A stretch of 55,544 bases of DNA from Halarcobacter sp. (lineage in GTDB: Bacteria > Campylobacterota > Campylobacteria > Campylobacterales > Arcobacteraceae). A program made the translations under genes and the position numbers. Each line of letters begins with the position of its first letter. Position 1 is the first letter of the stretch. The stretch is taken from assembly GCA_030145305.1 (NCBI GenBank), contig JAQYVX010000013.1, positions 1-55,544 of the forward strand, in the 5' to 3' direction. Of this stretch, positions 5,934 through 26,158 are shown piece after piece. The notes under the pieces were generated by a model, which was not told the DNA's origin, did not search any database, and saw nothing but the letters and a program-made list of their open reading frames with translations.

Positions 5934-6051
5934 TTGGTAAAAAATCTTTTACCAATTTTAGTTATATTAAACTTTAATTGTTCTTAAAAGGTTAAATAAA
6001 TTTTACTATAAATAGCTAATTTATATCTTTTGGTTAAATTTAAGTTACCAA
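5934..6051. promoter_or_regulatory. Divergent fdh / sensor-operon promoter with three copies of GGTAAA-N6-TTTACC
   Basis: Three 22-bp sites lie at 5934-5955 (perfect: TTGGTAAA / TTTACCAA with 6 bp between), 5988-6009 (GGT-N12-ACT) and 6030-6051 (TTGGTTAA / GTTACCAA). Their centres are 54 and 42 bp apart, close to whole helical turns. A TATAAT at 6058-6063 fits the rightward promoter, placing site 3 over its -35 region. A TATAAC read leftward at 5967-5962 fits the fdh promoter, placing site 2 around -43. The same motif occurs at 16322 and 19136. The bound protein is not known; the response regulator encoded at 8818 is the obvious candidate. Confidence 0.75.
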
Positions 6052-6082
6052 TTATGATATAATTCATTTTTAAGGGGAATAT

Positions 6083-7225
6083 TTGCTTAAATATATTATT
6101 GCTTATTTAATAAGTCTTAGTCTTTTTTTTCTTTTATTAAAAGATAGAATATACACAGAAGATACCATAGTTCTTGGAGCATCATTACCTAAAACTGGGA
6201 TAATGAAAGAATGGGGCAGAAGTGTTGAAATTGGAACAAATGCTTATTTTAAATATGTGAATGAAAAAGGTCTATTATCTGATAAAAGAAAAATAAAACT
6301 TATTACACTTGATGATAAATATGAACCTGAATTAACCCATGAAAATACAAAAAAATTTCTTGAGAGAAAAGATATTTTCTCTTTATATGGATATGTAGGA
6401 ACTCCAACTGTAAAATATATATTGCCACTTTTAGAAAAAAATGATATTCCTTTTATTGCTCCATTTTCAGGAGCATCTTTTTTAAGATATAACAATAATG
6501 AAAACTTTGTAAACTTTAGAAGTTCATATAAAGAAGAAATTGAAAAAATTGTTGATTATTTGTATTTCAAAAAAAACATTAGAAACTTTGCAGTTTTTTA
6601 TCAAAATGACCAATATGGAGAAGAAGGATATATCTCATTAATTCAAGCTTTAGAAAAAAAGAACTTAAAACTACAAGCAGAAGGTACCTATAAAAGAAAT
6701 ACTCTTTCTATAAAACATGCTTTTAGTGAGCTAGCTCAATTTCAACCCGAAGCTTTGATTATGATAGGCGCTTATAATGCTAATGCTTTATTTATAAAAA
6801 AAGCAAAAGCAAATGAAAAACTAAAAGATACAATCTTTTGTACTATTTCATTTAGTAATGCTGATGTGATGATTAAAAGTTTAGATTTTAATACAAAAAA
6901 TCTTATATTTTCAGAAATTGTTCCAAATTATGAAAATTCTAAAATTGACATTATAAAAGAGTATAAATACTTAATGAGAAGATATTATCCCAAAGAACCT
7001 CTTGGCTTTATCTCTTTAGAATCATTTCTTGCTGCAAAAACTGTTGTGGAAGCTATTAATAATATAAAAGGATTTTTAACACAAAGAAAATTTCTAGATG
7101 AATTAAGACAAATTCCAAAGGATACGTTAAAAGGACTAGAAATTGAATATAAAAATACACAGCTTTTAAATGAAGTATATTTATTCAAACATGAAAATTC
7201 AGATTTTGTAGAGATTCATGATTAA
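6083..7225 (+). CDS. LivK-like periplasmic binding protein, probable sensor partner
   Basis: A 380-residue type I periplasmic binding protein of the branched-chain amino acid/urea/amide group. A hydrophobic N-terminal signal is followed by TIVLGASLPKTG, the typical first strand, then NDIPFIAPFSG, FAVFYQNDQYGEEG and the usual second lobe. The start is TTG at 6083 behind a clear AAGGGGAA site. There is no permease or ATPase gene nearby; instead it overlaps a histidine kinase gene by 8 bp, and that gene overlaps a response regulator by 8 bp. Binding proteins in such operons usually present a ligand to the kinase in the periplasm. The ligand cannot be read from sequence; position next to fdh suggests formate respiration or selenium status (inference). 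Confidence 0.85.
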   Translation: MLKYIIAYLISLSLFFLLLKDRIYTEDTIVLGASLPKTGIMKEWGRSVEIGTNAYFKYVNEKGLLSDKRKIKLITLDDKYEPELTHENTKKFLERKDIFSLYGYVGTPTVKYILPLLEKNDIPFIAPFSGASFLRYNNNENFVNFRSSYKEEIEKIVDYLYFKKNIRNFAVFYQNDQYGEEGYISLIQALEKKNLKLQAEGTYKRNTLSIKHAFSELAQFQPEALIMIGAYNANALFIKKAKANEKLKDTIFCTISFSNADVMIKSLDFNTKNLIFSEIVPNYENSKIDIIKEYKYLMRRYYPKEPLGFISLESFLAAKTVVEAINNIKGFLTQRKFLDELRQIPKDTLKGLEIEYKNTQLLNEVYLFKHENSDFVEIHD

Positions 7226-8825
7226 AAAAGATAATAAATTAAAAAGAGTATTCTCTTATTTAAATAGTCTGCCTTTTTCTTATAAATCATCATTTCTTTT
7301 ATTTATAATCACAGGTGGTATGTTTATAATTATTGTTTTATCTCAAATCTCAATTTATACTTTAAAAAATGATTTTGATATATTATTTGAAAAAAGAACT
7401 AAACCTATTATCCAACTTGAAAATATTAAAGATATTTATAAAATCAATATTTACGATACTTTTTATGATATTCAACAAAAAAATATAGATATACAACAAT
7501 CAAAAGAGATTATCTCTTTAGGTCAACAACTTATAAATAAAAGTTGGAAAAATTATAAAGAAGTTACACTTGGAAAAGAGTTTGAAAAATCATATGTCAC
7601 TAGATTGATTAATAATTATTTTAATGTAAAAAAATCTTATAGTAATTCAATTTTGGAAAAAAACATTATTCCAATAATTGATAGGAAAATTAACCAAATT
7701 CATACTACTATTAATAAAATAGTAAAATTACTTGAAAGAAAGCATTTCGATAAAGCCTTAGAATTGGTTAATCTAATATATTTTGAAATAAATTCTGTAA
7801 ATATTTACCTTACTAATCTTACAAATTATGATTTAAATCTAGCAATTACTGAAAAAAATGAAACCCAAAAAGTATATTCTCTTTTAACCTTTATTTTGAA
7901 TCTTTCTATAATATTTGTATTTCTTTTTTCAATAATTTTTTCATACATTGTTGTTAATCATTTTAGAAAATTACATTTTAATCTTGAAGATGCTGTTAAT
8001 GCGAAAACAAAAGAGTTACAAGAAATAAATGATTATTTAGCAATTAAAATTGGAAAAGAAGTTGCAAATTCAAGAAAAAAAGATTTGATTATGTTTCAGC
8101 AATCAAAGCTTGCAAGTTTAGGTGAAATGCTAGGGAATGTAGCTCATCAATGGAGACAACCTTTAGGTTCTTTAATGATGATTATTCAATCTTTTCAAAC
8201 AAAAATGAGTTTAGGAAAACTCTCATATGAGTTTGTGGAACAAAAAGTTGAAGATGCCTTATTACTTAGTGAAAATATGTCAAATACATTAAATGATTTT
8301 CAAAACTTTTTTAGTCCAAATAAAGATAAAGCCCTTTTTAAAGTAAAAGATTGTGTTGCTCATTCTGTGCAATTATCTAAATACTTACTAGAAAGAGAAA
8401 ATATAAATCTAAGACATATAATTGTAGATGATTTAGAAATTTATGGCTTTTATAATGAACTATCACATGTATTTTTAAATATTATTTCAAATGCAAAAGA
8501 TGCATTAAAGAATAATGAAAATCAAAAAAAAATCAAAATAGTCGTAAAAAAACATAATGAAAATATAAGAATTAATATTTATGATAATGCAGGAGGAATT
8601 GAAGAAAATATAATCCCTCTTATCTTTGAGCCTTATTACACAACAAAGTATAAAAGTGCAGGAACGGGTATTGGTTTATATATGTCCAAACAAATTATTG
8701 AAAAGCATATGAATGGTATTATTAAATGTAAAAATGTTTTTAATAAAGTAGATGGATTTAATTTAGAATATGGTGCTTTATTTATAATAGATATTCCACT
8801 AACACAAAAGGAAAACAATGATTGA
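7218..8825 (+). CDS. Membrane sensor histidine kinase
   Basis: 535 residues. Two membrane segments (about 24-46 and 221-246) enclose a helical periplasmic domain of about 170 residues, the likely contact for the binding protein. A short linker with coiled-coil character leads to the H-box GEMLGNVAHQWRQPLG (phosphorylated His310), an N-box NIISNAKDALKN, and G-boxes DNAGGIEE and GTGIGLYMSKQIIE. All catalytic parts are present. The HQWRQPL type of H-box is common among Campylobacterota kinases. The gene is translationally coupled to both neighbours. Confidence 0.92.
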   Translation: MIKKDNKLKRVFSYLNSLPFSYKSSFLLFIITGGMFIIIVLSQISIYTLKNDFDILFEKRTKPIIQLENIKDIYKINIYDTFYDIQQKNIDIQQSKEIISLGQQLINKSWKNYKEVTLGKEFEKSYVTRLINNYFNVKKSYSNSILEKNIIPIIDRKINQIHTTINKIVKLLERKHFDKALELVNLIYFEINSVNIYLTNLTNYDLNLAITEKNETQKVYSLLTFILNLSIIFVFLFSIIFSYIVVNHFRKLHFNLEDAVNAKTKELQEINDYLAIKIGKEVANSRKKDLIMFQQSKLASLGEMLGNVAHQWRQPLGSLMMIIQSFQTKMSLGKLSYEFVEQKVEDALLLSENMSNTLNDFQNFFSPNKDKALFKVKDCVAHSVQLSKYLLERENINLRHIIVDDLEIYGFYNELSHVFLNIISNAKDALKNNENQKKIKIVVKKHNENIRINIYDNAGGIEENIIPLIFEPYYTTKYKSAGTGIGLYMSKQIIEKHMNGIIKCKNVFNKVDGFNLEYGALFIIDIPLTQKENND

Positions 8826-9483
8826 TAGAAACTTAAATATATTAAAAAACTTTACTGTTTTATATTTAGAAGATGATAAATCTCTTCTAACGCATACAAA
8901 AGATATCTTAGATGATTTTGTTTTAAAAGTATTTGCTGTAAACACTTCAAAAGAGGCTTTTGAAGTTTTAGAAAATGAAAAAATTAATGTAATTATTTCT
9001 GATATTCTTTTGGAAAATGAAAATGGAATAGATTTTTTAAGAACATTAAAAGAGGAAAAGAATTTAGATATTCCTATAATATTAACAACTGCGCATACAG
9101 ATACAAACTATCTTTTAGACGCTATAAAATTAAAAGTTGAAAACTATATTGTAAAACCTATAAATATAAAAGATTTATTAAACTCTTTGCATGATATTTT
9201 ATTTCCAATAATTCAAGCCCAAGAGATTGAAAAAAATTCAAATGTAATTAAAACAATATCTGCAATTACAGATAGTAAACAAGTAGAAGTTATAAAATAT
9301 ATTATTGCAAATTTAAATAATAATAACCAACTAATAGCTTCATATACTGATATTATGTCAGATATTTCAATATCAAAGCCAACATTGATAAAACTTTTTA
9401 AAGAACTAGCAGAAAAAAATATCTTGGTAAAAGTAGCACATAAAACTTATGATTTTAATTCCCAGGAGTTGAATAAGTTCTAA
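8818..9483 (+). CDS. Response regulator with C-terminal winged-helix-like domain
   Basis: 221 residues. The receiver domain shows the acidic pair (LEDD, residues 18-20), the phospho-acceptor Asp62 in ISDILL, the conserved TA (LTTAHTD) and the Lys in IVKPIN. Residues from about 145 onward are not an obvious OmpR, NarL or Fis output. The segment DIMSDISISKPTLIKLFKELAEKNIL reads as a helix-turn-helix with a wing after it, as in MarR-like or replication-initiator winged helices. It is the last gene of the three-gene sensor operon. It is the best candidate to bind GGTAAA-N6-TTTACC sites, three of which lie in front of its own operon (inference). Confidence 0.85.
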   Translation: MIDRNLNILKNFTVLYLEDDKSLLTHTKDILDDFVLKVFAVNTSKEAFEVLENEKINVIISDILLENENGIDFLRTLKEEKNLDIPIILTTAHTDTNYLLDAIKLKVENYIVKPINIKDLLNSLHDILFPIIQAQEIEKNSNVIKTISAITDSKQVEVIKYIIANLNNNNQLIASYTDIMSDISISKPTLIKLFKELAEKNILVKVAHKTYDFNSQELNKF

Positions 9484-9553
9484 ATATAAATTTATAATCA
9501 ATACTTAATCAATATTTATATATGATTCTTTTTTAATTACAAAAAGGAATCTC

Positions 9554-10048
9554 TTGAAACTTGATATTACAAAAATTGCCAATGTTATTTTATACTTATT
9601 AGATGAAAAAGTCTTACATCTAAATGATAGAAAATTATCTATCTTACTTTTTTTAATGGACTTTAACCACCTAGAAAACTGTGGTACTAAAATATTTGGA
9701 GAAGAGTACAAAAAAGATAAAAGAAACCCTGAACCAATTGTTATCTCAGAACTTTTTGATATTATTGCAAATCAAGAAGATTTAGATGAAGAAGATGAAA
9801 GGTTATTTTTAATAAGTGAATTATTAGAATATCTTGATATTGAAATTATCACAAATGATAAATTTATAGAGTTAGAATTTATAAAAATGGATGAAGAGTT
9901 TGACGAAGAACTTTTTTCTAAAGAAGAAATGAAAACTATTAATAAAGTTGTAGAAAAATATAAAGATGAAACTGCCAGAAAAATTGCAAATGCATGTTTT
10001 CAAATTGACAAAGTAAGAGATACAGCTTTAAACGAAACAATTATTTAG
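9554..10048 (+). CDS. SocA/Panacea-like (DUF4065) protein
   Basis: A 164-residue acidic protein. The first half (ILYLLDEKVLHLNDRKLSILLFLMDFNHLENCGTKIFGEEY) resembles the start of the Panacea domain (SocA, DUF4065), where a helical segment with 'L-YL-D' is followed by a conserved G and a basic/Pro stretch before an ELF helix. Panacea proteins often serve as antitoxins, but no toxin partner is visible next to it. The likely start is TTG at 9554 behind AAAGGAATC. Downstream is a decayed insertion element. The family call is moderate; function is not established. Confidence 0.55.
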   Translation: MKLDITKIANVILYLLDEKVLHLNDRKLSILLFLMDFNHLENCGTKIFGEEYKKDKRNPEPIVISELFDIIANQEDLDEEDERLFLISELLEYLDIEIITNDKFIELEFIKMDEEFDEELFSKEEMKTINKVVEKYKDETARKIANACFQIDKVRDTALNETII

Positions 10049-10061
10049 CTACCCCAAAAGG

Positions 10062-11144
10062 GGAGTGTTCAATAATTCATGTATGACATCTGTAATTCTT
10101 AAAAATGAATCAAAATTAGACCATTTAAGGCTCTGCATTAAGTCACATAAAAGAACAAATTTATATTTGTTACAATGCTAAATAATTGTCCAATTATGAA
10201 CTGGCTGAGTCCCATTTTCTTTTGCATTTAGTATTCTCATAATATAACAATTTTAAAAGTGAATTTTCATTAGGAAAATCTTCTTTTATTTTAGTTAATT
10301 TTCTAAGTTATCTATGAACAAATTCTATTATATTTGTTGTATACATAATCTTTCTTATCTCTTTTGAATATTTAAAATAATAAGATAATTTTTTCATTTA
10401 TTTTGTGAAAATTGAAGTATTATAGTATATTTCTTGTACCATTTTTTATCAAGTTTTAAATCTTTCCTAAATTTTTTTTGATTTTTAGAGGCTACATACT
10501 TTAATCAATTTTTATTTACTTTTTCAAGATTCCGTTACACTACATGATGGACAACACAAAGTTTGTACTTCACTATTTGAATATCTTATTTTAATGACTC
10601 TGCCAAAGCCTTTAAGACCATAAACTGAAACAATTAGAATATTTTCTAACCCTTTATTATTAAAATACCAAACCAAAGTTTGCTCCTTCACTTTGAGAAA
10701 GATACAATCCTTATATATCTTTTTTGTCATCAATTTCCATTTGCTGTACTGTACATACATTTTTAATTATATATGTATCACTATTTATAATGTATTACAT
10801 CTAATCAGATAAATGAATAAATTGATTTTAAAGGTCTACTTTCTCAATATTTTGTCCGTAATAGCGCTTGTTGTTGCCCTTGATAATTGTATTTGATAAA
10901 TTTCTTCAATATATTTGATTATATTTCTATAGCTTAATCCTAAGCCATACATTAAGAGTATTTTTTCTATTTCATGTGATATTATAAAAAGCAATTACAC
11001 CTAATTTTTTACTAATAGATCAACATTTCATCTCTTCTATTGACATTTTGCCTGATTTTATACCTTTATAAGATTGTTTAACATCTATTTTTCTCGTCAT
11101 CCGTGTGTCCTTTAGTATTTTTTATTTCTAAAAATTATCACTCC
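10062..11144 (-). mobile_element. Decayed IS256-family insertion element
   Basis: About 1.1 kb without an intact gene between the SocA-like gene and the DUF2975 gene. Fragments of a Mutator/IS256 transposase can be followed on the minus strand through this whole stretch in shifting frames. Candidate ends are GGAGTGTTCAATAATT at 10062 and, inward from the other side, GGAGTGATAATTTTT ending at 11144; only the first 6 bp match well, so the exact ends are tentative. No target duplication was recognised. The size fits a worn, internally deleted copy of an element normally about 1.3 kb long. Confidence 0.75.
10130..11100 (-). pseudogene. IS256-family transposase remnant, frameshifted and truncated internally
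   Basis: Reading leftward from the ATG at 11098-11100: MTRKIDVKQSYKGIKSGKMS; then MYGLGLSYRNIIKYIEEIY with SRATTSAITDKIL; then GLENILIVSVYGLKGFGRVI; then LKYVASKNQKKFRKDLK; then KEIRKIMYTTNIIEFVHR, a stop, LRKLTKIKEDFP; and NWTII near the end. These follow the IS256 order (Y-GMS-R-I, ED-L---VDGLKGF, IRNSLKYVS-KD, RR-IYTTN-IE--NR-LRK). Several in-frame stops, one at 10308-10310, and frameshifts are present; the segment after KDLK is shortened, and the catalytic Asp of VDGLKGF is Tyr. It cannot be active. Confidence 0.88.
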
Positions 11145-11214
11145 AAAATTTCTAGTTAAAACTATTCTCTTTATTTTTAGTGCATAAAACTATGATTTAT
11201 TTCAATATTTTATC

Positions 11215-11242
11215 GTAAAACAATAATTTATAATTGTTTTAC
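11215..11242. promoter_or_regulatory. Perfect inverted repeat, probable operator of the XRE regulator
   Basis: The arms GTAAAACAAT and ATTGTTTTAC are separated by 8 bp and end 13 bp before a TATAAT (-10, 11256-11261) that serves the DUF2975/XRE operon. A protein bound here would cover the -35 region. The small XRE protein encoded two genes downstream is the likely binder, giving autorepression (inference). Confidence 0.7.
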
Positions 11243-11287
11243 AATGAATATATGATATAATCTTTTTATATTAATATAAGGATTTAA

Positions 11288-11797
11288 ATGAATAATTTAA
11301 ATAAAATAAGTTCAATTAGTAAAGGATTAAAAATAATCATAAATATTTTAATCTTTTTGTTGCCACTTTATTATTTACAATATTGGCTTTTAATAAATAT
11401 TACAAAAGAAGATTTATTACAAACTGATATAAGTATGATACAACAAAGTATGGGTTTGATATGTTCTTGTTTACCCCTTTTGATATTACTAATTTTACTT
11501 ATAAGAATACGTGATTTATTACATTATTACATTAATGGAGAATTATTTTTGTATGAACATGTACTTATTTTTAAAAAAATTGCAAAACTATTTGCCTTAT
11601 GGGTTATATTTTCAATTATTTATGAAGGTATTAAAAGTGTAATATTTTCATGGAATAATATAAATAATAGGTATTTAGAAATTCAAATTGATGCCAACCA
11701 AACAATTTTAATTTTCATGTCTCTTGTTATATATGTTCTTGCCTTGATAGTTGATGAAGGTAGAAAAATAAAAGAAGAGAATTCACTTACGATATAA
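11288..11797 (+). CDS. DUF2975-family membrane protein
   Basis: 169 residues with four predicted membrane segments (about 17-35, 53-74, 96-116, 140-157), the layout of DUF2975/YoaS-like proteins. These are typically encoded next to a small YozG-like XRE regulator, exactly as here. Function is unknown in the family. An AAGGA site precedes the ATG. The next gene starts 11 bp after the stop, so the two form an operon. Confidence 0.8.
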   Translation: MNNLNKISSISKGLKIIINILIFLLPLYYLQYWLLINITKEDLLQTDISMIQQSMGLICSCLPLLILLILLIRIRDLLHYYINGELFLYEHVLIFKKIAKLFALWVIFSIIYEGIKSVIFSWNNINNRYLEIQIDANQTILIFMSLVIYVLALIVDEGRKIKEENSLTI

Positions 11798-11808
11798 AGG
11801 AGCTAACT

Positions 11809-12027
11809 ATGGCAATAATAATTAACCTAGATGTAATGTTAGCTAAGCGTAAAATGAAATCAATGGAATTGGCTAAATTAATTGGTATTACGGAGCAAAA
11901 TCTTTCTATATTAAAGACAGGAAAAGCAAAAGCTATTCGTTTATCAACACTTAATGAGATTTGTAAACACTTAGACTGTCAGCCATCTGATATTTTAGAG
12001 TATACAAAAGATAATAAAGAAAATTAA
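11809..12027 (+). CDS. Small XRE-family transcriptional regulator (YozG-like)
   Basis: 72 residues forming little more than one Cro/CI helix-turn-helix: LDVMLAKRKMKSMELAKLIGITEQNLSILKTGKAKAIRLSTLNEICKHLDCQPSDIL. The ending C-QPSDIL-Y is characteristic of the YozG type paired with DUF2975 proteins. It probably regulates its own operon through the inverted repeat at 11215-11242. A GGAG site overlaps the end of the intergenic gap. Confidence 0.9.
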   Translation: MAIIINLDVMLAKRKMKSMELAKLIGITEQNLSILKTGKAKAIRLSTLNEICKHLDCQPSDILEYTKDNKEN

Positions 12028-12040
12028 AAAAGGATTTACA

Positions 12041-12382
12041 ATGAAAAAAACTATATTATTAACTTCTGCACTAATATTTATATTCTCTGCTTGTTCTATA
12101 AAGCAACATTCACAAACCATTGAAAATGCATCAAAAAACAAGATGTTTCAGGGACTAGATAAACACACTAAGTTTTCTACTAGTTTTCCAAATGCTCATA
12201 ATGGAGTATATCAAGAAGTGATCCAATTTGATTTTGTAATAAAGTCTGGTTTGTACAGAAATAAAAATGCAAGTTCTATTCTTGTGAAAAAAGATAATAA
12301 ATGGCAGGTAATAAAATTATATGTTCAAATTAATGAAGAATGGGTTTTATTAAAAAAAGCTAATGAAAAAGAAAGTGAATAA
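12041..12382 (+). CDS. Small lipoprotein of unknown function
   Basis: 113 residues starting with a lipoprotein signal (MKKTILLTSALIFIFSAC; lipobox FSAC, acylated Cys18). The mature part is short and basic, with WQVIKLYVQINEEWVLLKK near the end. No family was recognised. It starts 13 bp after the XRE gene with an AAAGGA site and is probably part of the same operon. A weak AGAAAG/CTTTCT hairpin straddles the stop codon. Confidence 0.75.
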   Translation: MKKTILLTSALIFIFSACSIKQHSQTIENASKNKMFQGLDKHTKFSTSFPNAHNGVYQEVIQFDFVIKSGLYRNKNASSILVKKDNKWQVIKLYVQINEEWVLLKKANEKESE

Positions 12383-12509
12383 TTTTCTTTCTTATACTGA
12401 GATTTTCGAGCTTTTAAGTATCGATTAAATAAAATAAAAAGTTCAAGTTGTTAAATAATTTTATGGTAAGTATTATACATATAATATTTGATAATTAAAT
12501 GAGGAAAAA

Positions 12510-13184
12510 ATGAATAAAAATAGTAACCCCTCAAGAATTGCAGGGATATTAATTGTAATTGGAATGATTGTAGGAATATTAAGCGTTATTCCTGCTGTTG
12601 AAAGTTTGGATTATCTTAAGGAAGTTTCTTTAAATCAAAATCAAGTATTTATAGGAGCATTCTTTCAGTCTATTATGATTCCCATCTATATTGGATTTGC
12701 ACTTATACTATATCCGATTTTAGAACAATATAATAAAAGTCTTGCTATTGGGTTTGTAGGATTTAGAATAATGGCAGGAATGTTTCACTTAATTGGAATT
12801 CTTCTTCTTCCCTTATTTTTATTATTAAGTCAAAAGTTTGTAAATGATATAAGTCCAGATTTATTATATTTTCAAACATTGGGGGAAGTTTTAAAATTAG
12901 GACGAGATTTAGTAAACCATGTGGGTATGATATTGTCTTTAAGTTTAAGCAATTTAATTCTATATTATATATTTTATAAAACTAAACTTATCCCTCAATG
13001 GTTGACAATTTGGGGGATTTTGGGATATATATTAACAATAATGGCAAGCTATTTGTTATTATTTAATTTTATAAATGTTATCACATCTACATATATGATT
13101 TTAATGTTACCTGTAGCTTTACAAGAAATGATTTTAGCAATATGGTTAATTACGAAAGGATTTAACTCTAAAGCAATAAAATAA
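12510..13184 (+). CDS. DUF4386-family membrane protein
   Basis: 224 residues with about six hydrophobic segments. The N-terminal NPSRIAGILIVIGMIVGI and later GFVGFRIMAGMFHLIG and LGRDLVNHVGMILS follow the DUF4386 pattern (SRIAG...GFR..E). Family function is unknown. A TATAAT-like -10 about 30 bp upstream and a GAGGAAA site support an own promoter. It ends in a shared terminator with the convergent transporter gene. Confidence 0.8.
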   Translation: MNKNSNPSRIAGILIVIGMIVGILSVIPAVESLDYLKEVSLNQNQVFIGAFFQSIMIPIYIGFALILYPILEQYNKSLAIGFVGFRIMAGMFHLIGILLLPLFLLLSQKFVNDISPDLLYFQTLGEVLKLGRDLVNHVGMILSLSLSNLILYYIFYKTKLIPQWLTIWGILGYILTIMASYLLLFNFINVITSTYMILMLPVALQEMILAIWLITKGFNSKAIK

Positions 13185-13209
13185 GAAGATATACCTTATC
13201 TTCTTATTT
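13177..13209. terminator. Bidirectional terminator between convergent genes
   Basis: A 14-bp inverted repeat (AAAATAAGAAGATA / TATCTTCTTATTTT) with a 5-nt loop overlaps the stop codons of the DUF4386 gene (plus) and the permease gene (minus). Each arm supplies an A-tract/T-tract for one direction. Confidence 0.8.
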
Positions 13210-14685
13210 TAAATCACATCCACAAGAAGTTATACTTTGCTCTACTTTCAAATAATTTCTAGTTCTTCGTGAAATACTATCAATTATTATATTTAACATT
13301 GCTGTTATTACTAGCAATAACATCATTTTATCAAGCCTAAAATCTGCTATTGCAGAATCAATAAAAAATCCTAATGTAGCAACTCCTAAAATACCTAATA
13401 TTGCAGATTCTCTCATAATTATTTCCCATCTGTAAAAAAGAAAAGCTAAAAATTGAGAATAAATTCTTGGTAAGACTTCATAAAAATATAATTCATTTTT
13501 CTTTTTTGTTACATCTTGCCGCAAGTTTAATATATTTGTTTGTTGTCCCATTAAAAAAGCAATTATTGCTCCATTGTGAAGCATTAAAGCTAAAGCAGCA
13601 GGTAACATAGAAGGACCAAACATTTGTAAAAATATATATGCAATGATATATTCAGGAGTTGAACGTAAAACTACTAAAAACATATGAGCTATTGCTCTTC
13701 CAAATTTATTTGTAAATTTTAAAGAAATAAAAGGAAAAGAAATCAAGGCTAAGATTGCAGTTAAGACAAGTGCTATTTGGGTTAAAAGAATTGTATTAAA
13801 AACTCCTATTAAAATTTCATTTGTAAAAATATTTGAAAACCACTCAAAAGTCTTTTCATATCCTGCATTTGTTCTTATTGGGTGTGGAATAATATCACTT
13901 GTAATAAACCTAATAAAATTGTCTATTTTAATACTTGGAAATTCTTCTAAATAAAAAAAAGAAGCAAGTATAATAAAGCCTACACTATATTTTGTAAGCC
14001 AAAATCTTATAGTGGCTATTACTATATAAAATAAAATTAATAAAAGCCATACTTCATTATAATATCCTTGCATAAATGAAGAAGAAAGATAATATCCTAA
14101 AGTAGTAATTCCTACAAAACCTAAAATTGCTGTTGAACGTAAAGCACACTCAAATCTATAAAAAGTATATGAAATTAAGTGTGGCAAGGCATCGGGAATT
14201 TTTGTATATAAATAGTATGAAACTTTAGATTTTCCTTTTAATTCTTTAGGAAAATTATCATGTTCTTGCAATATTTCAGCATATACTTTTGCTAAAATTG
14301 CACTATAAGGAATAGTAATCGCCAAAAGTGCTGTAAGTGTGTTTAATCCAAATATTTGTAAAAATATTAAAGCCCAGAAAAGCTCATGAATTGCTCTTGT
14401 AAAAGCTAAACTTATTCTTACAAAAAAGTTTTCAAAGGTTAAAGCTAATAAAAACCCAAAAATTGTAGCAAAAAACATTGCAAGAATAGCTATTGAGATT
14501 GTATTAAATAGTGCAGGAAAAAGTTTTGTTGTTTGTGAAAAATCTATTTGAAATATGGCAAAAGAAAATTTCTTTAATTCTAAAAATGGCTCTAAAGTAG
14601 AAATAGAAAAATCTGCAAAAATAAAAGAGATTATTCCTACAAATAAAAAAAGAAAAGAGACTTTCGTATTTTTACTCAACTGCAT
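13204..14685 (-). CDS. PhnE-like ABC permease, two permease domains fused; putative selenium oxyanion transport
   Basis: 493 residues containing two binding-protein-dependent permease units in tandem (about 30-235 and 275-480). Each has its own EAA-like loop before the last helices (RFECALRSTAILGFVGITTLG and RWEIIMRESAILGILGVATLG), so the polypeptide alone makes the membrane dimer. The sequence follows PhnE of the phosphonate/phosphite group. Operon: binding protein (15344), ATPase (14672, overlapping by 14 bp) and this gene, all leftward and opposite yedF. The binding protein is of the branch named 'putative selenate' transporter, so selenium oxyanion import is the likeliest role. The C-terminal tail has a CGCDLK motif of unknown meaning. 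Confidence 0.8.
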   Translation of the reverse strand: MQLSKNTKVSFLFLFVGIISFIFADFSISTLEPFLELKKFSFAIFQIDFSQTTKLFPALFNTISIAILAMFFATIFGFLLALTFENFFVRISLAFTRAIHELFWALIFLQIFGLNTLTALLAITIPYSAILAKVYAEILQEHDNFPKELKGKSKVSYYLYTKIPDALPHLISYTFYRFECALRSTAILGFVGITTLGYYLSSSFMQGYYNEVWLLLILFYIVIATIRFWLTKYSVGFIILASFFYLEEFPSIKIDNFIRFITSDIIPHPIRTNAGYEKTFEWFSNIFTNEILIGVFNTILLTQIALVLTAILALISFPFISLKFTNKFGRAIAHMFLVVLRSTPEYIIAYIFLQMFGPSMLPAALALMLHNGAIIAFLMGQQTNILNLRQDVTKKKNELYFYEVLPRIYSQFLAFLFYRWEIIMRESAILGILGVATLGFFIDSAIADFRLDKMMLLLVITAMLNIIIDSISRRTRNYLKVEQSITSCGCDLK

Positions 14686-15340
14686 GATATAAATTTTCTC
14701 TATCTTCTTGTGTTAAATCCTCACATCTTTTGTCAAGTAATAGTTTGCCATTTTTCAAACCTATTACCCTATCAAAGTTTTCAAGAGCTAAATCTACATT
14801 ATGAAGAGTACAAATTACTGTTTCATAGGAAGTACTTAAAATATTAACAACTTTTTTAGATAAATACTCATCAAGAGCAGATACAGGCTCATCAGCTAAC
14901 AGAATCTTCTTTTGTGAGTACAAAGCACGAGCAATTGCTACACGCTGTTTTTGACCACCTGAAAGATTTTGTGACTTTATAAATATTTTATCCTCAAGTA
15001 ATAATTTACTTAAAATATTAGAAATATTACTTATCTCATTTTTAACTGGCATTATAAGATTTCTAATATTGTAAAACAATGAGTTTGAATCAAGTTGGGA
15101 AATATATACATTATGAAAAACAGATAAATTATTTACCAAACCTAATTCTTGAGGAATGTATGAAGATTTTTCTTCTTGTAGTTCATACATTCTTTTTAAA
15201 AGTGTAGATTTTCCACTTCCACTTTTTCCTAAAAGGGCGATTTTTTCGCCCTCTTTTATTTCTAAAGTAATAGAATCAATAGCTAATAAACTATTATAAG
15301 AAATAGATTCGTTTGTAAAAGAAAAAGCTATATTTTTCAA
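14672..15340 (-). CDS. PhnC-like ABC transporter ATPase; putative selenium oxyanion transport
   Basis: 222 residues with Walker A LLGKSGSGKST, signature LSGGQKQRVAIARAL, Walker B ILLADEPVSALD and the switch His (TLHNVDLA). It is somewhat shorter than PhnC proteins (about 250) and its helical domain is compact. It starts 3 bp after the binding-protein stop and overlaps the permease by 14 bp, so the three genes are one translational unit. Confidence 0.88.
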   Translation of the reverse strand: MKNIAFSFTNESISYNSLLAIDSITLEIKEGEKIALLGKSGSGKSTLLKRMYELQEEKSSYIPQELGLVNNLSVFHNVYISQLDSNSLFYNIRNLIMPVKNEISNISNILSKLLLEDKIFIKSQNLSGGQKQRVAIARALYSQKKILLADEPVSALDEYLSKKVVNILSTSYETVICTLHNVDLALENFDRVIGLKNGKLLLDKRCEDLTQEDRENLYHAVE

Positions 15341-15343
15341 AGC

Positions 15344-16186
15344 TTAGTCAATAAGTCCAATTTTTTTACCAACATTTAAAATTGGTTCAAAATCTTTATT
15401 TTCAGCTTTGATAAAAGCAGTTCTTGGAAAAGCATCTAAGATTTTTTTATCTTTAACATTGATAAGTGCTTTTTGTAATTTTGCTGTAAAACCTTTTCCA
15501 TAAACTTCATCTAAATCACCACGTGCAGTAAACTGATAATCAGGATAAGCAGGAGTTTTATAAATAACTTTTACTTTTGAAGTATCAATTTTACCAGCTT
15601 TTAATTCTCTATCCCATACTTTAAAGTTAACAGCTCCTAATTCATAAGCCCCGCTTTGAACTAAGGCAATTGTCTTAGAATGATTTCCAGAAAATCCAAC
15701 TTTTTTAAATATATCATTTGGAGCTTTTTTAAAAGTTTCTCTAATAAAATATTCAGGCATTAATCTACCACTTGTACTTCCTTTTGAACCAAAAGTAAAA
15801 GTTTTACCTTTAACTTCAGAAGATAGTAAATCAGCTTTTTCTAAACCTGTACTAGCATTTGCAATTATATAAGAATGGAATTTAGGATCTTCAGCACCTT
15901 GAGCTATTGCTACAGAATTAGGAACAACAATTCTAGCTCGAACACCACTTAAACCACCAAACCAAGCTAATTGTACTTGATTGTTTCTAAACGCTGCGAT
16001 TGATGCAGAATAAGACTTAACAGGGATAAACTTAACATCCACATCTAACTCTTTTGAAAGATAAGTTGCTAATAAAGAAAATCTTTCTTTTAGATTTGTT
16101 TCATCCTGATCAGGAATTGCCGTAAATGTAAATGTTTGTGAAAACAAAGACGAAGCACATAATAGTGCCAATAGAAGTTTTTTCAT
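15344..16186 (-). CDS. PhnD-like binding protein of the putative selenate ABC transporter group
   Basis: 280 residues with a signal peptide (MKKLLLALLCASSLFSQTF) and a type II periplasmic binding fold. The opening FTFTAIPDQDET, then KSYSASIAAFRNNQVQLAWFGGLSGVRAR and AIAQGAEDPKF, are the recognisable blocks of the PhnD-related branch labelled in protein family collections as a putative selenate-binding component, which tends to lie near selD and yedF. Here it is divergent from yedF and 3 kb from selD, as expected. Phosphonate use is unlikely since no C-P lyase genes are visible. Substrate is inferred from family and context, not shown. The upstream region carries the palindrome at 16251 and the operator at 16322. 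Confidence 0.82.
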   Translation of the reverse strand: MKKLLLALLCASSLFSQTFTFTAIPDQDETNLKERFSLLATYLSKELDVDVKFIPVKSYSASIAAFRNNQVQLAWFGGLSGVRARIVVPNSVAIAQGAEDPKFHSYIIANASTGLEKADLLSSEVKGKTFTFGSKGSTSGRLMPEYFIRETFKKAPNDIFKKVGFSGNHSKTIALVQSGAYELGAVNFKVWDRELKAGKIDTSKVKVIYKTPAYPDYQFTARGDLDEVYGKGFTAKLQKALINVKDKKILDAFPRTAFIKAENKDFEPILNVGKKIGLID

Positions 16187-16250
16187 TTCTACTCCAAAAT
16201 TTTTTTTGAAGCATGTTTAGTCATATAAGTTCATGCATAGCTATATGTCC

Positions 16251-16339
16251 AACCTAAACCTTAGGTTATGCTTGTTTGTTGTTCGTACTATAATAAAGAA
16301 TATATAAAAGTACTCTTAAAAGGTAAAATAAAATTTACT
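16251..16339. promoter_or_regulatory. Divergent transporter / yedF control region: palindrome plus GGTAAA-type operator
   Basis: AACCTAAACCTTAGGTT (16251-16267; 7-bp arms around 3 bp) and GGTAAAATAAAATTTACT (16322-16339) lie between the transporter and yedF. A TAAAAT at 16371-16376 is the probable -10 for yedF, so the second site is centred near -52. The same two elements, in the same order and spacing, stand between the double-cubane gene and selD (19068-19153). The 28 bp around the first palindrome, TGTCCAACCTAAACCTTAGG and onward through TATGCTT, are identical in both places. Confidence 0.8.
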
Positions 16340-16378
16340 TTAGCTAATTTTATTTTAACTAAATAGATTGTAAAATAA

Positions 16379-16460
16379 CTTACATTAGCCTATGGAATAG
16401 GTGTACATAAATGTTTAATCTTCTTTTATTCAAATTATCTGCACTTCTTACATACAAATT
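16379..16460 (+). promoter_or_regulatory. Conserved yedF leader, nearly identical to the selD leader
   Basis: From the predicted transcription start (about 16382) the 5' untranslated region matches 19193-19268 almost base for base, starting TTACATTAGCCTATGGAATA and ending near CACTTCTTACATA. It contains an ACATT / AAATGT outer pairing and a CCTAT-GGA-ATAGG inner hairpin. One difference (G for A before CCTAT) keeps pairing possible as G-U. It could be an RNA regulator or a second operator resembling AACCTAA-N3-TTAGGTT. Confidence 0.7.
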
Positions 16461-16480
16461 TTATAATACAAAGGAATGCG

Positions 16481-16819
16481 ATGAATACTTCAAAAAAAAC
16501 TCTATTTTTAAAATCTGACAAAGTTGGTGATGGCGAACTAGGTTCAATGTTAATAAAAGGTTTTTTAAATGCGATTAGTCAACAAGAAAACTTACCTGAA
16601 AGCATAATCTGTGTTAATAGTGCCATTTTATTAACAACAAGTGAGGATGAAGAATTAATTCAGATTCTAAAAGAATTAGAAAATAAAAAAGTTTCAATTT
16701 ATTCATGCGGAACTTGTTTAGACTATTATAAAAAGAGAGATGATTTAAAAGTTGGAGTTCCTGGAAATGCTATGGATACTGTAAACTTACTTTTAAATAA
16801 AGATATTGTAACACTTTAA
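16481..16819 (+). CDS. yedF: YedF-like selenium metabolism protein (DsrE fold)
   Basis: 112 residues corresponding to the DsrE/F-like domain of YedF. Typical parts are LFLKSDKVGDGELGSMLIKGFLNAI, a SAILLTTSE stretch and the Cys motif YSCGTCLDYY (the likely persulfide or selenide carrier). The TusA-like N-terminal domain present in longer YedF proteins is missing. YedF proteins co-occur with selD and are thought to deliver or handle reduced selenium; biochemical proof is limited. An AAAGGAATGCG site precedes the ATG. It sits behind the conserved leader and ends at a bidirectional terminator. Confidence 0.85.
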   Translation: MNTSKKTLFLKSDKVGDGELGSMLIKGFLNAISQQENLPESIICVNSAILLTTSEDEELIQILKELENKKVSIYSCGTCLDYYKKRDDLKVGVPGNAMDTVNLLLNKDIVTL

Positions 16820-16822
16820 AAT

Positions 16823-16849
16823 ACAATAGGCTCAAATTAAGCCTATTGT
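16823..16849. terminator. Bidirectional terminator after yedF and the activase gene
   Basis: A 10-bp perfect stem (ACAATAGGCT / AGCCTATTGT) with a 7-nt loop lies between the converging stop codons and is followed by T-rich sequence rightward and A-rich leftward. Confidence 0.85.
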
Positions 16850-17611
16850 TTAAATTTCATTACAAACTTCATATCCACTAAGAGCAGCACCAATTGCTCC
16901 AACTAATTGAGGATGTTTTGCTGCAATAACCTTTTTTTCTAATTTTTGAGATAGAAGATATACTAAAAAACCATTTAATGCTCCACCACCTGTAAAAATT
17001 ATGTACTCACTTTTTATTGCAAATTTTCTAGCCATTGAAGCTAATCTTGAGGCAATAGATTCATGAACTGCAAAACAGATATTTGAAGCACTCTCTTTTT
17101 TAGCAATTAAAGAAATAACTTCTGATTCTGCAAAAACAGCACACATACTAGAAATAGTAAGCTCTTTATTTGCTTCAAATCCTATTTTTGAAAATTCATC
17201 TAATTCTAAGCCCATTCTACTTGAAGCTATTTCTAAAAACTTTCCAGTTCCTGCTGCACATTTATCATTCATTTTAAAATCAATAAATCCACCTGTTTTA
17301 TCAAGTAAGATAACTTTGCTATCTTGTCCACCTAAATCAATTACCATCTGAGCTTGATTTTGAAAAAAATACGCACCTTTTGCATGAGCTTTTATTTCAC
17401 TTATTACAGGACAAGAAAAAGTATCTTCAATCATATGTCTACCATATCCTGTGGATACTAGCATTTGAACATCTTTATCTTTTAGATAATCTTTTACTAT
17501 CTCATCTTGATTTACAATAGTAGGTATAATTTTTGTGTAAATAATCTCTTTACTTTCATTGATTCCACATATTTTTGTATATGTGGAACCCACATCTACG
17601 CCCCAATACAT
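16850..17611 (-). CDS. ATP-dependent activase of the double-cubane-cluster protein (BcrA/BadF/HgdC type, YjiL-like)
   Basis: 253 residues of the ASKHA ATPase fold: phosphate-1 loop GVDVGSTYTK (4-13), IDLGGQDSKVI (91-101), NDKCAAGTGKFLE with Cys118 and TISSMCAVFAESEV with Cys157 (the two Cys that bridge one [4Fe-4S] between subunits), and FTGGGALNGF. This is the archerase type that uses ATP to push an electron to very low potential. It follows the double-cubane gene by 1 bp, so it is its partner. No full 2-hydroxyacyl-CoA dehydratase operon is present, which argues against fermentation of hydroxy acids. Confidence 0.9.
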   Translation of the reverse strand: MYWGVDVGSTYTKICGINESKEIIYTKIIPTIVNQDEIVKDYLKDKDVQMLVSTGYGRHMIEDTFSCPVISEIKAHAKGAYFFQNQAQMVIDLGGQDSKVILLDKTGGFIDFKMNDKCAAGTGKFLEIASSRMGLELDEFSKIGFEANKELTISSMCAVFAESEVISLIAKKESASNICFAVHESIASRLASMARKFAIKSEYIIFTGGGALNGFLVYLLSQKLEKKVIAAKHPQLVGAIGAALSGYEVCNEI

Positions 17612-17612
17612 A

Positions 17613-18935
17613 TTAATTTTTTTGTTTAAATTTTAAAGCTTTATTTTTAAAAGATATACTTTCTAAAAAGGCTTCAACTCTTGTTTTTATTTGTCCTGCA
17701 TCTTCAGGAGAATAATCTGATTCTATAACTAAACAAGGTATTCCAGCTTCTTCAAGTGCAGTAGTTACAAGATGTGATTCAACATTATATGTATGACAAA
17801 AAGAAAGAGTGTAATAAATAACCCCATCAGCACATCTATCTTTATACATTTGCAAAATTTTATCAATTCTAGGCGTATTTGGGGTAAAACAAGCACAATC
17901 AACTGCACTATATCTTTTCATAAGTTCACTCATTAAGTCATCTTCTGTTTCAATATTTTCTAAATCAACATTATCTTTATAATATCTGTGTCCAATACAT
18001 GATTCTTCATTTATAATTGCCCCACCTGAACCTTCAACTGCGGTATGAAGTTTCCAATTAGGAGGAGCAATAGGCGTTCCTAAAACCATTAATCTAGGTG
18101 TATCTTTTTCAAATACTGAAATCTTTTCTTCTACTCTTTTTTCAAGTTCATCACAAAGTTCATTTACTTTTTTGGTATATCTTGTAGGATCATCTAAAAA
18201 TCCCATTTGATTAATAAATAGAGCATCTTTACCACTAATTGGCACAACATCAGGATTTAATCCTCTAAGAGTATCAAGCCTTTGCATAGCTTTTCTTTTT
18301 TCATTTATAATTTTTGTTCCATTAACCATCTCTTCTAAAGATAACTTTTTTCCAATTACTTCTTCAATATGTTCTTTAAATTCAACAATCTCTTCTTTCC
18401 ACATTTTTAAATCTTTTTCTCTTTTCATATGCGGAATATTCATTACATGAACAGGATGATGTTTATTAAGTATTTCCCAAGTCTTTTTCTTAGCTTCACA
18501 TGTAGTTTCACCATAAATAAAATCTGCTGATTGTGTATAAGCACAAGTCTTTTGTAACTTAAATCCATGTGCTGATTTAATTAAAGGACAAATATTTCGA
18601 GGAAGTTCTGTTTCTCCATCTGCAATTGTTGCTGGACTCCCACCACATAAACCAAAACATGCACCACCAGCACCTACAATAATTTCTTCAGGAACAAAAA
18701 TACAAAAAGTTCCAACAGTAGGTTTTTTATTTTTTCTTAATTCATTTATTTCTGCAATTCTGCCACCTTGAATCTCACTCATAAACCAATCAAAATACTT
18801 CATTCCCTCAGGTCTATTTTTTTGAGACATAAATTGATTTTGATATGATTCTAATCCCATACTCATCATTTTTGCATGCCTATCTACATCTACACCAATA
18901 TTTGAAAGAAGTTTTTTATGTTCTTGAACACCCAT
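17613..18935 (-). CDS. Double-cubane-cluster-type reductase (HgdB/DCCP family, YjiM-like)
   Basis: 440 residues in a single chain of the 2-hydroxyacyl-CoA dehydratase D family. Candidate cluster Cys are C78 (GTFCIFVPEE), C93 and C97 (GACFGLCGG), C116 (RNICPLIK), C131 (KTCAYTQSADF) and C146 (ETTCEAKK), with further ones in the C-terminal half. A lone subunit plus dedicated activase is the arrangement of the Carboxydothermus double-cubane protein, known to reduce small molecules such as acetylene with ATP; its physiological substrate is unknown. Here it is divergent from selD under a promoter shared in design with yedF and the putative selenate transporter, so a role in selenium (or sulfur) reduction is a reasonable but untested idea. 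Confidence 0.85.
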   Translation of the reverse strand: MGVQEHKKLLSNIGVDVDRHAKMMSMGLESYQNQFMSQKNRPEGMKYFDWFMSEIQGGRIAEINELRKNKKPTVGTFCIFVPEEIIVGAGGACFGLCGGSPATIADGETELPRNICPLIKSAHGFKLQKTCAYTQSADFIYGETTCEAKKKTWEILNKHHPVHVMNIPHMKREKDLKMWKEEIVEFKEHIEEVIGKKLSLEEMVNGTKIINEKRKAMQRLDTLRGLNPDVVPISGKDALFINQMGFLDDPTRYTKKVNELCDELEKRVEEKISVFEKDTPRLMVLGTPIAPPNWKLHTAVEGSGGAIINEESCIGHRYYKDNVDLENIETEDDLMSELMKRYSAVDCACFTPNTPRIDKILQMYKDRCADGVIYYTLSFCHTYNVESHLVTTALEEAGIPCLVIESDYSPEDAGQIKTRVEAFLESISFKNKALKFKQKN

Positions 18936-19067
18936 TTAATTTTCCTTAAATTTTTTTAGTTTCATGATAAAAGATTAGTGTGAAGGTTACTGTCTTTAAA
19001 TCATGTTATTTAAAACTTGAATTATTAAACAGCATATGTAGGCAATAAGAATAAGTGCTTTTTGTCC

Positions 19068-19153
19068 AACCTAAACCTTAGGTTATGCTTATTTTTTTAA
19101 ATTATATATATTCTTTTATAAAATTAAACTTAAAAGGTAAAGAAAATTTTACC
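19068..19153. promoter_or_regulatory. Divergent reductase / selD control region: palindrome plus GGTAAA-type operator
   Basis: AACCTAAACCTTAGGTT (19068-19084) and GGTAAAGAAAATTTTACC (19136-19153, perfect 6-bp arms, 7 with the flanking A/T) repeat the layout at 16251-16339. A TAAAAT at 19185-19190 is the probable -10 of selD, putting the operator centre near -52, as for yedF. The interval 18936-19285 holds no gene. Confidence 0.82.
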
Positions 19154-19192
19154 TATCTTTAATCTAGGCTTAATTTTTTTATAGTAAAATAT

Positions 19193-19268
19193 CTTACATT
19201 AACCTATGGAATAGGTGTACATAAATGTCTAATCTCCTTTTATTCAACTTATCTACACTTCTTACATA
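19193..19268 (+). promoter_or_regulatory. Conserved selD leader, nearly identical to the yedF leader
   Basis: Begins TCTTACATTAACCTATGG three bases after the -10 box and runs to CACTTCTTACATATA, matching the yedF leader with only a few substitutions while sequence on either side has diverged. The inner hairpin ACCTAT-GGA-ATAGGT is perfect here. Functions to consider: RNA switch, translational control, or protein site at the transcription start. Confidence 0.7.
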
Positions 19269-19285
19269 TATAATCAAGGAAAAAA

Positions 19286-20320
19286 ATGAATAACGAATAT
19301 AAATTAACAAAATTCGTTCAAGCTGCTGGCTGAGCTGCTAAGATGGGTCCGGGGGATCTTAAACAAACAATTATTAGCTTAGTACCATGCGATGACAAAG
19401 TGCTTGTAGGATTTGAAAATAGTGATGATGCTTCTGTTTATAAATTAAATGATGAAGAAGCTCTAGTTCAAACACTTGATTTTATAACGCCTGTTGTAGA
19501 TGACCCTTATGTTTATGGGAAAATTGCAGCAGCAAATTCACTTTCAGATATTTTTGCAATGGGAGCAGATGTTAAAACTGCTCTAAATATTGTAGGATTT
19601 GATAATAAAAATCAAGGAACAGATGCTCTAAGAGAAATACTTAGAGGTGGAAATGAAAAAATTCAAGAGTGTGGTGGACTTTTAATGGGTGGACATACTA
19701 TTGAAAGCCCTGAAATGTATTATGGTTTATCAGTTTCTGGAATTGTTCATCCTAATAAAATATTAAGAAATAATACCGCTAAAATTGGCCATGTATTAGT
19801 TTTGACAAAACCATTAGGAATGGGAGTTTTATCAACTGCTATTAAAAGAGATTTATTAAGTGAGTCTACAACAAATGAAGCAGTTAAGATTATGGAAGCA
19901 TTAAATTATTTGCCTTCAAAATTATTAAGAAAATATGATGTAAGTGCTTGTACAGATATAACTGGTTTTGGTTTATTAGGTCATGCTTTAGAATCTACAA
20001 ATGAATTTAATTCTTTTGCAATACATTGTGGAAAAGTGCCTATTATGCAAGATGCTTTAGAATTAGCAGCACAAGGTGTAGTTCCTGGAGGTACAAAAAG
20101 AAATATTAAGTATCTTCAAGATAAAACTACTGTTATGTGTGCATCAAACGATTGTTATGAAATGTATTGTGATGCCCAAACTTCAGGTGGATTGTTAGTA
20201 TCAATGGCAGAAGAAGATGCAAAAGAGTACGTAAAAGAAATAGAAGATTTAACTTATGGATATGCAACTATTATTGGTGAAGTAATTCCAAGAGGAATAA
20301 CACCTATAATGATTTATTAA
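19286..20320 (+). CDS. selD: Selenophosphate synthase, itself a selenoprotein (Sec16)
   Basis: Makes selenophosphate from selenide and ATP for selenocysteine synthesis. The frame starts at ATG 19286 (AAGGA site 9 bp before) and passes one UGA at 19331-19333: residues 9-22 read KFVQAAG-U-AAKMGP. That U takes the place of the catalytic Cys17 of E. coli SelD, with the essential Lys three residues on. Total length is 344 residues, normal; starting after the UGA would lose the active site. GGHTIE, TDITGFGLLGH and DAQTSGGLL are the expected ATP/metal motifs. Sec-type SelD is known (for example Haemophilus) and implies autoregulation by selenium supply. A large hairpin terminator follows. Confidence 0.95.
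19339..19361 (+). other. Candidate SECIS hairpin of selD
   Basis: Starting 5 nt after the UGA, UAAGAU pairs with AUCUUA across an 11-nt G-rich loop that contains GGU. Position suits a bacterial SECIS; the loop is larger than in the E. coli case, so inner pairing (UCC with GGG) may form. Confidence 0.5.
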
Positions 20321-25825: not shown

Positions 25826-25847
25826 AAAGTAAAATATATTTTACTTT
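25826..25847. repeat. Perfect 22-bp palindrome related to the GGTAAA-type operator
   Basis: The sequence AAAGTAAAATA followed directly by its complement. The inner 18 bp read AGTAAA-N6-TTTACT, the same layout as the fdh/selenium operators with A for the first G. It lies between tetR and the tRNA-Sec gene, downstream of both, so a terminator or chance AT palindrome is also possible. Confidence 0.6.
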
Positions 25848-26099: not shown

Positions 26100-26158
26100 A
26101 ATTTTTTCTAGAATGTAATTCTACTATAACAATATTAAAAAATTATAAAAGGGTAAAT

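Follow-up and report, generated by a model that had tools for sequence, protein, structure and literature searches.

Two-component control of a respiratory regulon through a periplasmic binding-protein sensor is known from TorT-TorS-TorR. On the selenium side, the closest described systems are the predicted selenium regulator LysR_Se/HrsM (PMC5322559), the FdhTU pair of Campylobacter jejuni, in which YedE (FdhT) and YedF (FdhU) are described, in the available part of the sources, as supporting a selenium-dependent formate dehydrogenase (PMC6682613, PMC5322559), and the epsilonproteobacterial selenocysteine insertion sequence (SECIS) hairpins (PMC4607533). The locus considered here is a 55,544-nucleotide window of Halarcobacter sp. 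(assembly GCA_030145305.1, contig JAQYVX010000013.1, positions 1 to 55,544), in which an 18-base-pair (bp) palindrome, GGTAAA-N6-TTTACC, recurs between the divergent formate dehydrogenase (fdh) and sensor operons and ahead of the selenium genes yedF and selD. Comparison across 298 Campylobacterota genomes makes it likely, though not assured, that the response regulator encoded at 8818-9483 binds to this operator, and that fdh and the selenium-supply promoters share it.

Operator sites and their conservation

A preliminary description of the window had listed five sites by eye, all of which proved to be real, although the first three had been placed 2 bp too low; the pattern GGT-N12-AC(C/T) is kept in each, and none of the five lies within a gene, both as had been claimed. 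The sites are the following:

5936-5953, unstranded: operator site 1, exact, GGTAAAAAATCTTTTACC, 15 bp from the start codon of the fdh 4Fe-4S gene, with a predicted overlap with the fdh transcription start
5983-6007, unstranded: operator site 2, core 5990-6007, GGTTAAATAAATTTTACT, two mismatches, with a CTTAAAA extension; centre at about -50 from the predicted fdh start
6032-6049, unstranded: operator site 3, GGTTAAATTTAAGTTACC, two mismatches, over the -35 region of the sensor-operon promoter (TATAAT at 6058-6063)
16315-16339, unstranded: operator, core 16322-16339, GGTAAAATAAAATTTACT, one mismatch, between the divergent promoters of the selenate-type transporter and yedF
19129-19153, unstranded: operator, core 19136-19153, GGTAAAGAAAATTTTACC, exact, between the divergent promoters of the double-cubane reductase and selD

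The exact palindrome occurs three times in the genome (against one for the reversed pattern), namely at fdh, at selD and at a second selenocysteine fdh operon (L145). The loose motif, on the other hand, is not enriched in the window, where 55 matches with up to three mismatches compare with 46 +/- 7 in shuffled sequence, and the case therefore rests on the exact sites, on an extended form of the pattern and on orthologous positions. Fifteen of the 16 genomic matches with at most one mismatch were fetched, ten of them being coding and five intergenic; the latter precede fdh, the second fdh operon, selD, yedF and one ribB-like gene (a name assigned by eye). The CTTAAAA extension is common to the sites at 5990, 16322 and 19136, and in the 3.03-Mb genome itself the extended pattern finds exactly these three. 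As the yedF and selD sites sit in two similar stretches, they may not count as independent. A palindrome match at 26152 was set aside as an operator, being the start of selA; a two-mismatch palindrome at 25828-25845 (AGTAAAATATATTTTACT), between a TetR gene and tRNA-Sec/selA, may be another operator.

Relatives of the regulator were found at E <=1e-20 in 108 of the 298 genomes, and many of the close ones are encoded in an operon divergent from fdh, with selA, selB or selD nearby. Where the regulator is at least 55% identical, the palindrome is present in the fdh/sensor region at one mismatch in 34 of 38 genomes, and at two mismatches in 37 of them; L016 was dropped from this set as the same genome stretch as L060, and loci with no recognised binding protein (L088, L091, L092, L095, L097 and most of family f2) stand outside it. 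The four genomes missing at one mismatch are represented by L067, which is cut by a contig end, L070, L087 and L089, and among the sites site 3 is less conserved than the others. At selD, a site within two mismatches was found in 330 bp at 19 of the 21 loci among the matches listed, the window included, the two loci lacking it having regulators of 48% and 34% identity.

The fdh promoters of regulator-less genomes, by comparison, showed no site at one mismatch in any of 25 cases (20 from family f3, four from f2, in which the gene start is uncertain, and one from f5); for the 20 from f3, mononucleotide shuffles come within one mismatch in 0.3%. Twenty of these controls were hand-picked from the best-scoring genomes having no regulator match, among 197 genomes with an fdh protein, and as all of them turned out to belong to f3, the five from f2 and f5 were added; one of the 20 carries a two-mismatch match elsewhere. 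The site is likewise absent from the fdh promoter of a same-family genome that has no ortholog of the regulator (L244). Both co-occurrence with the regulator and retention at orthologous fdh and selD promoters, which the preliminary description had singled out as checks, are borne out by these counts.

An extended pattern, CTTAAANRGTWAAN6TTTACY, built from the window sites and their relatives, has 26 matches in 19 of the 298 genomes, whereas the reversed control has two, which is the enrichment at related promoters that a regulon with one regulator would be expected to give. Twenty-five of the 26 precede selD, yedF, a gene for a twin-arginine translocation (Tat) transglutaminase-like protein, the double-cubane reductase, the transporter, fdh or sensor operons (three of them distant sensor operons of family f10), and the remaining one adjoins fdhD. 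All 26 thus fall at fdh, fdhD, sel, divergent-partner or sensor promoters, in line with the concentration anticipated beforehand; as the pattern was partly derived from the loci it finds, however, the figure measures the lack of other matches more than discovery.

The exact 18-bp sites extend this list. In regulator genomes, 18 of the 19 fetched, among the matches listed, are intergenic (the other, L160, is intragenic), and they precede, among others, additional fdh operons, a DmsB/PhsA-like operon, and the genes for YedE/FdhT (NF033796; 609 bits against a cut-off of 350), for a VTT-domain protein and for a selenate-type binding protein that, at 178 bits, stays under its cut-off of 250. Among the loci listed first, all eight from regulator genomes are intergenic (three of them overlap the 19), whereas 18 of 21 from other genomes are coding, one of the 21 (G205) having a distant regulator. 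Operator and leader hairpin also occur together before a DmsB/PhsA-like molybdoenzyme operon (L153, L157, L159, L204), which in L153 and L157 is divergent from an OmpR-type regulator. A similar inverted repeat accompanies a Peripla_BP_4-type binding protein in two genomes (L147, L202), L147 also having an exact operator.

Promoter architecture and the leader hairpin

The genes on which these sites bear, together with the selenocysteine machinery of the window, are as follows, the sensor operon being divergent from fdh:

227-3067, minus strand: fdh catalytic subunit (formate dehydrogenase), with an in-frame TGA (selenocysteine), spanning two listed open reading frames
3499-4221, minus strand: fdh operon chaperone (Nitrate_red_del)
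4218-5921, minus strand: fdh operon 4Fe-4S protein
6083-7225, plus strand: periplasmic binding protein of the sensor operon (Peripla_BP_6)
7218-8825, plus strand: sensor histidine kinase (HATPase_c, Pfam)
8818-9483, plus strand: response regulator, with receiver, long helix and winged helix-turn-helix; predicted reader of the operator
13204-14685, minus strand: PhnE-like permease of a selenate-type ATP-binding cassette (ABC) transporter (203 bits, under the cut-off of 217)
14672-15340, minus strand: ABC ATPase of the selenate-type transporter
15344-16186, minus strand: substrate-binding protein of the transporter (TIGR04553, 'putative selenate', 375 bits, cut-off 250)
16481-16819, plus strand: YedF (TIGR03527, above cut-off)
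16850-17611, minus strand: activase (BadF/CoA_E_activ)
17613-18935, minus strand: double-cubane-cluster reductase (NF040772, above cut-off)
19286-20320, plus strand: selD, with an in-frame TGA near its start; the listed open reading frame begins at 19343
26005-26099, minus strand: tRNA-Sec (selC)
26159-27523, plus strand: selA
27513-29357, plus strand: selB

A -10-like box begins mostly 37-41 bp from the operator centre (30 bp for yedF of L060), which puts the site near -50 of the predicted transcription start, and in the window each selenium site lies between divergent promoters with boxes on both sides, at 38 and 40 bp. The preliminary description had the yedF and selD sites centred about 52 bp before the predicted start; this agrees with the predicted transcription start (a TAAAAT box begins 40 bp from the centre) but not with the start codons, which lie about 150 bp away for yedF (16481) and 142 bp away for selD (19286). 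At fdh, the main copy of the operator is found mostly 11-24 bp before the 4Fe-4S start codon, where the 4Fe-4S gene is the divergent neighbour, and it directly follows a -10-like box (TAAAAT, TAGAAT, TACAAT and the like), so that it would lie over the predicted start. Many genomes have a second copy of the operator there, 52-56 bp further and centred near -50; TTTTAAG or a close variant comes next to it on its fdh side.

Under the mechanism proposed, the periplasmic binding protein (6083) and the kinase (7218) would respond to a signal from outside the cell, probably the availability of formate or selenium, which would set the phosphorylation of the regulator, and a regulator dimer would bind (A/G)GT(A/T)AA-N6-TTTAC(C/T). 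As a single site lies about 50 bp before the predicted starts of two divergent promoters, it most likely activates both members of each pair (the transporter with yedF, and the double-cubane reductase with selD). The two fdh sites, 54 bp apart, flank the core promoter at -50 and over the start, for which reason fdh is probably tuned in both directions, and through site 3 the sensor operon is probably autorepressed. A further layer could be provided by a 6-bp leader hairpin with a GG(U/A) loop, whose likely reader is a selenium-responsive factor. While the preliminary description had the sites themselves, it lacked three points of this architecture: the one site for two divergent promoters, the position of site 1 over the predicted fdh start, and the 5' hairpin.

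All four divergent selenium-supply transcripts begin, at their predicted 5' ends, with such a hairpin, which has a stem of 6 bp and GGU or GGA as its loop and is mostly followed by ACATA:

16252-16266, minus strand: ACCUAA-GGU-UUAGGU, transporter transcript
16388-16402, plus strand: GCCUAU-GGA-AUAGGU, yedF transcript, outside the lowest-energy single fold
19069-19083, minus strand: ACCUAA-GGU-UUAGGU, double-cubane reductase transcript
19202-19216, plus strand: ACCUAU-GGA-AUAGGU, selD transcript, outside the lowest-energy single fold

Across 34 leaders (alignment A1), all six stem pairs vary on both sides with 98.5% of cells pairing, the loops are GGU in 21, GGA in 10, GGC in two and GUU in one, the first loop G being invariant, and covariation scores 0.862, slid versions not exceeding 0.158; the hairpins were gathered partly by hairpin search and by eye, and the paired fraction is therefore inflated by selection. 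In 28 of the 34, the centre of an operator that differs from RGTWAAN6TTWACY at one position or none lies 50-68 bp before the stem, the six exceptions being three leaders of L017, those of L023 and L025, and the HGDD leader of L064.

A covariance model of the hairpin, run on the genome itself, returned four matches at E <=0.01, which are the four leaders, and it has matches in 33 of the 298 genomes. Leaders of family f10 from outside the training set were also matched, both of yedF (L179, L183) and of a lipoprotein (L184-L186, L188, L190), and L199-L202 were found by the model afterwards; for 44 matches in 53 loci the covariation score was 0.880, in an alignment (A3) that is itself fitted to the model. 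Of 18 hairpin-model loci that were inspected, four (L189, L192, L193, L194) look like chance and two (L177, L191) are uncertain: in these, which come from two genomes of a single genus, a hairpin of similar form follows the end of a gene and no target gene is evident. Single-fold z-scores ran from -0.59 to -2.30 in seven of eight leaders and reached +0.19 in one, and the hairpin was part of the lowest-energy fold in five of five transporter or Tat leaders and in none of three selD or yedF leaders, so that for the latter covariation is what argues for it. In Rfam, only tRNA-Sec reached its gathering score in the window, the hairpin being unmatched, and at E <=10 the region 15900-19400 gave five unrelated weak matches, none on the hairpins.

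The 5/6-bp hairpin with a conserved loop G is what a SECIS would present, while the preceding in-frame UGA is absent, the hairpins lying upstream of start codons; the resemblance to the SECIS loop may be taken as a lead. A reading of the GGA loops by CsrA was rejected, since many loops are GGU and an Arcobacter is reported, in the accessible part of the source, to have no csrA (PMC6682613). Short open frames, noticed by eye, follow the hairpin at selD (19224-19292, MSNLLLFNLSTLLTY...) and at yedF (16409-16500, MFNLLLFKLSALLTY...) and are possible leader peptides. A three-way junction, likewise seen by eye, is possible in the transporter and Tat leaders (16184-16276, minus strand; L018, L017, L023, L060), with candidate stems (P1, P3) made of flanking AAGCAU/AUGCUU and of CAAAA/UUUUGGAG beside the ribosome site. 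The Tat-signal protein itself, which has a transglutaminase core (Pfam, 71 bits, L201) and received no NCBIfam name, carries the hairpin and at many loci is encoded divergently from selD or yedF (L060, L064, L069, L072, L201 and others); it is perhaps a new selenium-supply protein.

The candidate reader and competing explanations

That the adjacent regulator is a two-component response regulator is indicated by a Pfam Response_reg match of 75 bits and by the kinase encoded alongside, and its structure model consists of a receiver and a winged helix (mean predicted local distance difference test score 91). Its output domain matched neither Trans_reg_C nor GerE in Pfam, the only match being RepL (32 bits); in one relative the output domain matched HTH_36 below the cut-off, and Foldseek and VIA-align fold searches returned receiver domains, leaving the output domain unassigned. 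At the head of the predicted recognition helix, S186, K187, P188 and T189 are invariant or conserved in at least 90% of 47 relatives. Distant binding-protein/kinase/regulator operons have GTAAA-N6-TTTAC ahead of them in four of the six fetched (two exact, two with one mismatch), those of L098, L110, L111 and L112, all of family f10, as opposed to L099 and L108. In some genomes of this family (which we guess to be Sulfurospirillum-like, and f2 Helicobacter-like) the fdh site has drifted (GGTCAATAAACATTTACC, L086), and at five of five loci a rhodanese-like lipoprotein gene has, 56-65 bp ahead of its hairpin, a site of the looser form RGTHAAN6TTDACY; the yedF leader of L199, from the same family, has no such site. 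The earlier proposals that the adjacent set is the natural candidate reader, and that a single regulator links formate oxidation with selenium supply, seem well placed in light of the specificity and conservation of the site, its co-occurrence with the regulator, the distant operons and the nearly invariant helix residues.

Several observations weigh against this reading. Genome-wide, matches with at most one mismatch number 16 against 15 for the control, i.e., the loose motif is at chance frequency, which counts against the original wording of the claim, and exact matches occur in 76 of the 298 genomes, many of the fetched ones in coding sequence and in genomes that lack the regulator. A near-exact site stands ahead of the ribB-like gene, and several sites precede DmsB/PhsA-like operons not known to need selenium. 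Four regulators of at most 53% identity (L090, L093, L094, L096) have no palindrome within three mismatches, and the fetched relatives with no binding protein have no core match within one, which means that the family as a whole does not share the site; in G187, an additional copy of fdh (L243) has none at the usual place, with a one-mismatch match about 270 bp upstream. As 20 of the 25 controls belong to one family, absence there may partly follow descent. The -10-like boxes were picked by eye among candidates, the transcription starts being predictions from them, and the sign of control at fdh is ambiguous, the start-overlapping site suiting repression and the -50 site activation.

Could the palindrome be regulatory but read by another transcription factor, the sensor operon being just one of its targets? 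The assignment of the regulator to its operator is deduced from sequence comparison, and because the regulator adjoins one presumed target, co-occurrence could follow linkage or descent; the sites before the DmsB/PhsA-like operon next to the OmpR-type regulator fit such a reader as well. Exact sites in regulator genomes nevertheless also occur at targets far from the regulator (yedE, the VTT protein, the DmsB-like operon), and the empty regulator-less fdh promoters and the core palindrome ahead of most of the distant sensor operons point the same way, which makes another reader rather improbable. Far less credible still is an origin of the yedF and selD sites by mere duplication of a promoter-leader block, with chance in an AT-rich genome accounting for the remaining matches: the stretches around the two sites are nearly identical and loose matches are not enriched, but the site is kept in many genomes while its surroundings change, and the placement of every extended match at a related promoter, against two matches for the reversed pattern, already contradicts it.

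A further explanation, compatible with the operator being read by the regulator, places the main control in the hairpin as a UGA-less SECIS-like element that SelB would bind, whereby surplus selenocysteyl-tRNA would shut off selenium supply and the operator would only set the level. In E. coli, the leader of selAB is reported to contain a SECIS-like element that SelB uses, a finding attributed to Thanbichler and Bock (2002). The placement of the hairpins at predicted 5' ends and their predominantly GGU loops would suit this, as would the SECIS of fdhA in the window, whose hairpin has 5 bp and a GGUGU loop, and the 5/6-bp hairpins with an invariant loop guanosine described, in the part of the source available, for epsilonproteobacterial SECIS (PMC4607533). 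The selD and yedF loops are GGA rather than GGU, however, and the hairpin is missing from all three of their lowest-energy folds; some hairpin matches, moreover, precede genes with no known selenium role. As selB is present in 36 of the 38 genomes tested, its presence does not discriminate. Control chiefly through SelB seems, on balance, unlikely, although less so than another reader of the palindrome. Somewhat better placed, if still tentative, is a two-layer selenium economy in Campylobacterota, in which a formate- or selenium-sensing two-component system would act, via one operator, on transcription of both the selenocysteine formate dehydrogenase and its supply genes, and selenium status (e.g., SelB with selenocysteyl-tRNA) would close those supply genes after initiation through a new class of leader element, a SECIS-mimic or riboswitch-like hairpin.

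Comparison with known systems

With a conserved operator and a named candidate regulator in several families of one phylum, a direct test becomes possible. Genes whose role is uncertain (YedF, YedE, the double-cubane reductase, the selenate-type transporter, the Tat-transglutaminase-like and the VTT proteins) are grouped into one likely selenium-supply set, and the leader hairpin that they share is a candidate new RNA regulator. No regulator, operator or RNA of this kind was found described in the open-licence literature, in agreement with what the preliminary description held for the regulator; what appears to be new is the combination of a putative two-component selenium-formate regulon with a leader hairpin, the kind of system itself being known.

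As in TorT-TorS-TorR, a binding protein, a kinase and a regulator are encoded beside the respiratory enzyme operon that they would control; unlike in TorT-TorS-TorR, the output domain matches RepL, and the predicted regulon includes selenium uptake and selenophosphate synthesis. LysR_Se/HrsM is similarly a regulator linked to sel genes, but it is a one-component protein of the LysR type, and the accessible part of its description mentions neither a two-component system nor a promoter (PMC5322559). The YedE and YedF families of FdhTU both fall within the present putative regulon, whereas FdhTU is described, in the portions of the sources at hand, as accessory and post-transcriptional, with no shared operator there (PMC6682613, PMC5322559). 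The hairpins, lastly, resemble the epsilonproteobacterial SECIS, as far as the available part of its description goes, in being short (5/6 bp) and in having a conserved loop guanosine, but the SECIS follows an in-frame UGA inside a gene, whereas those reported here are found in 5' leaders (PMC4607533).

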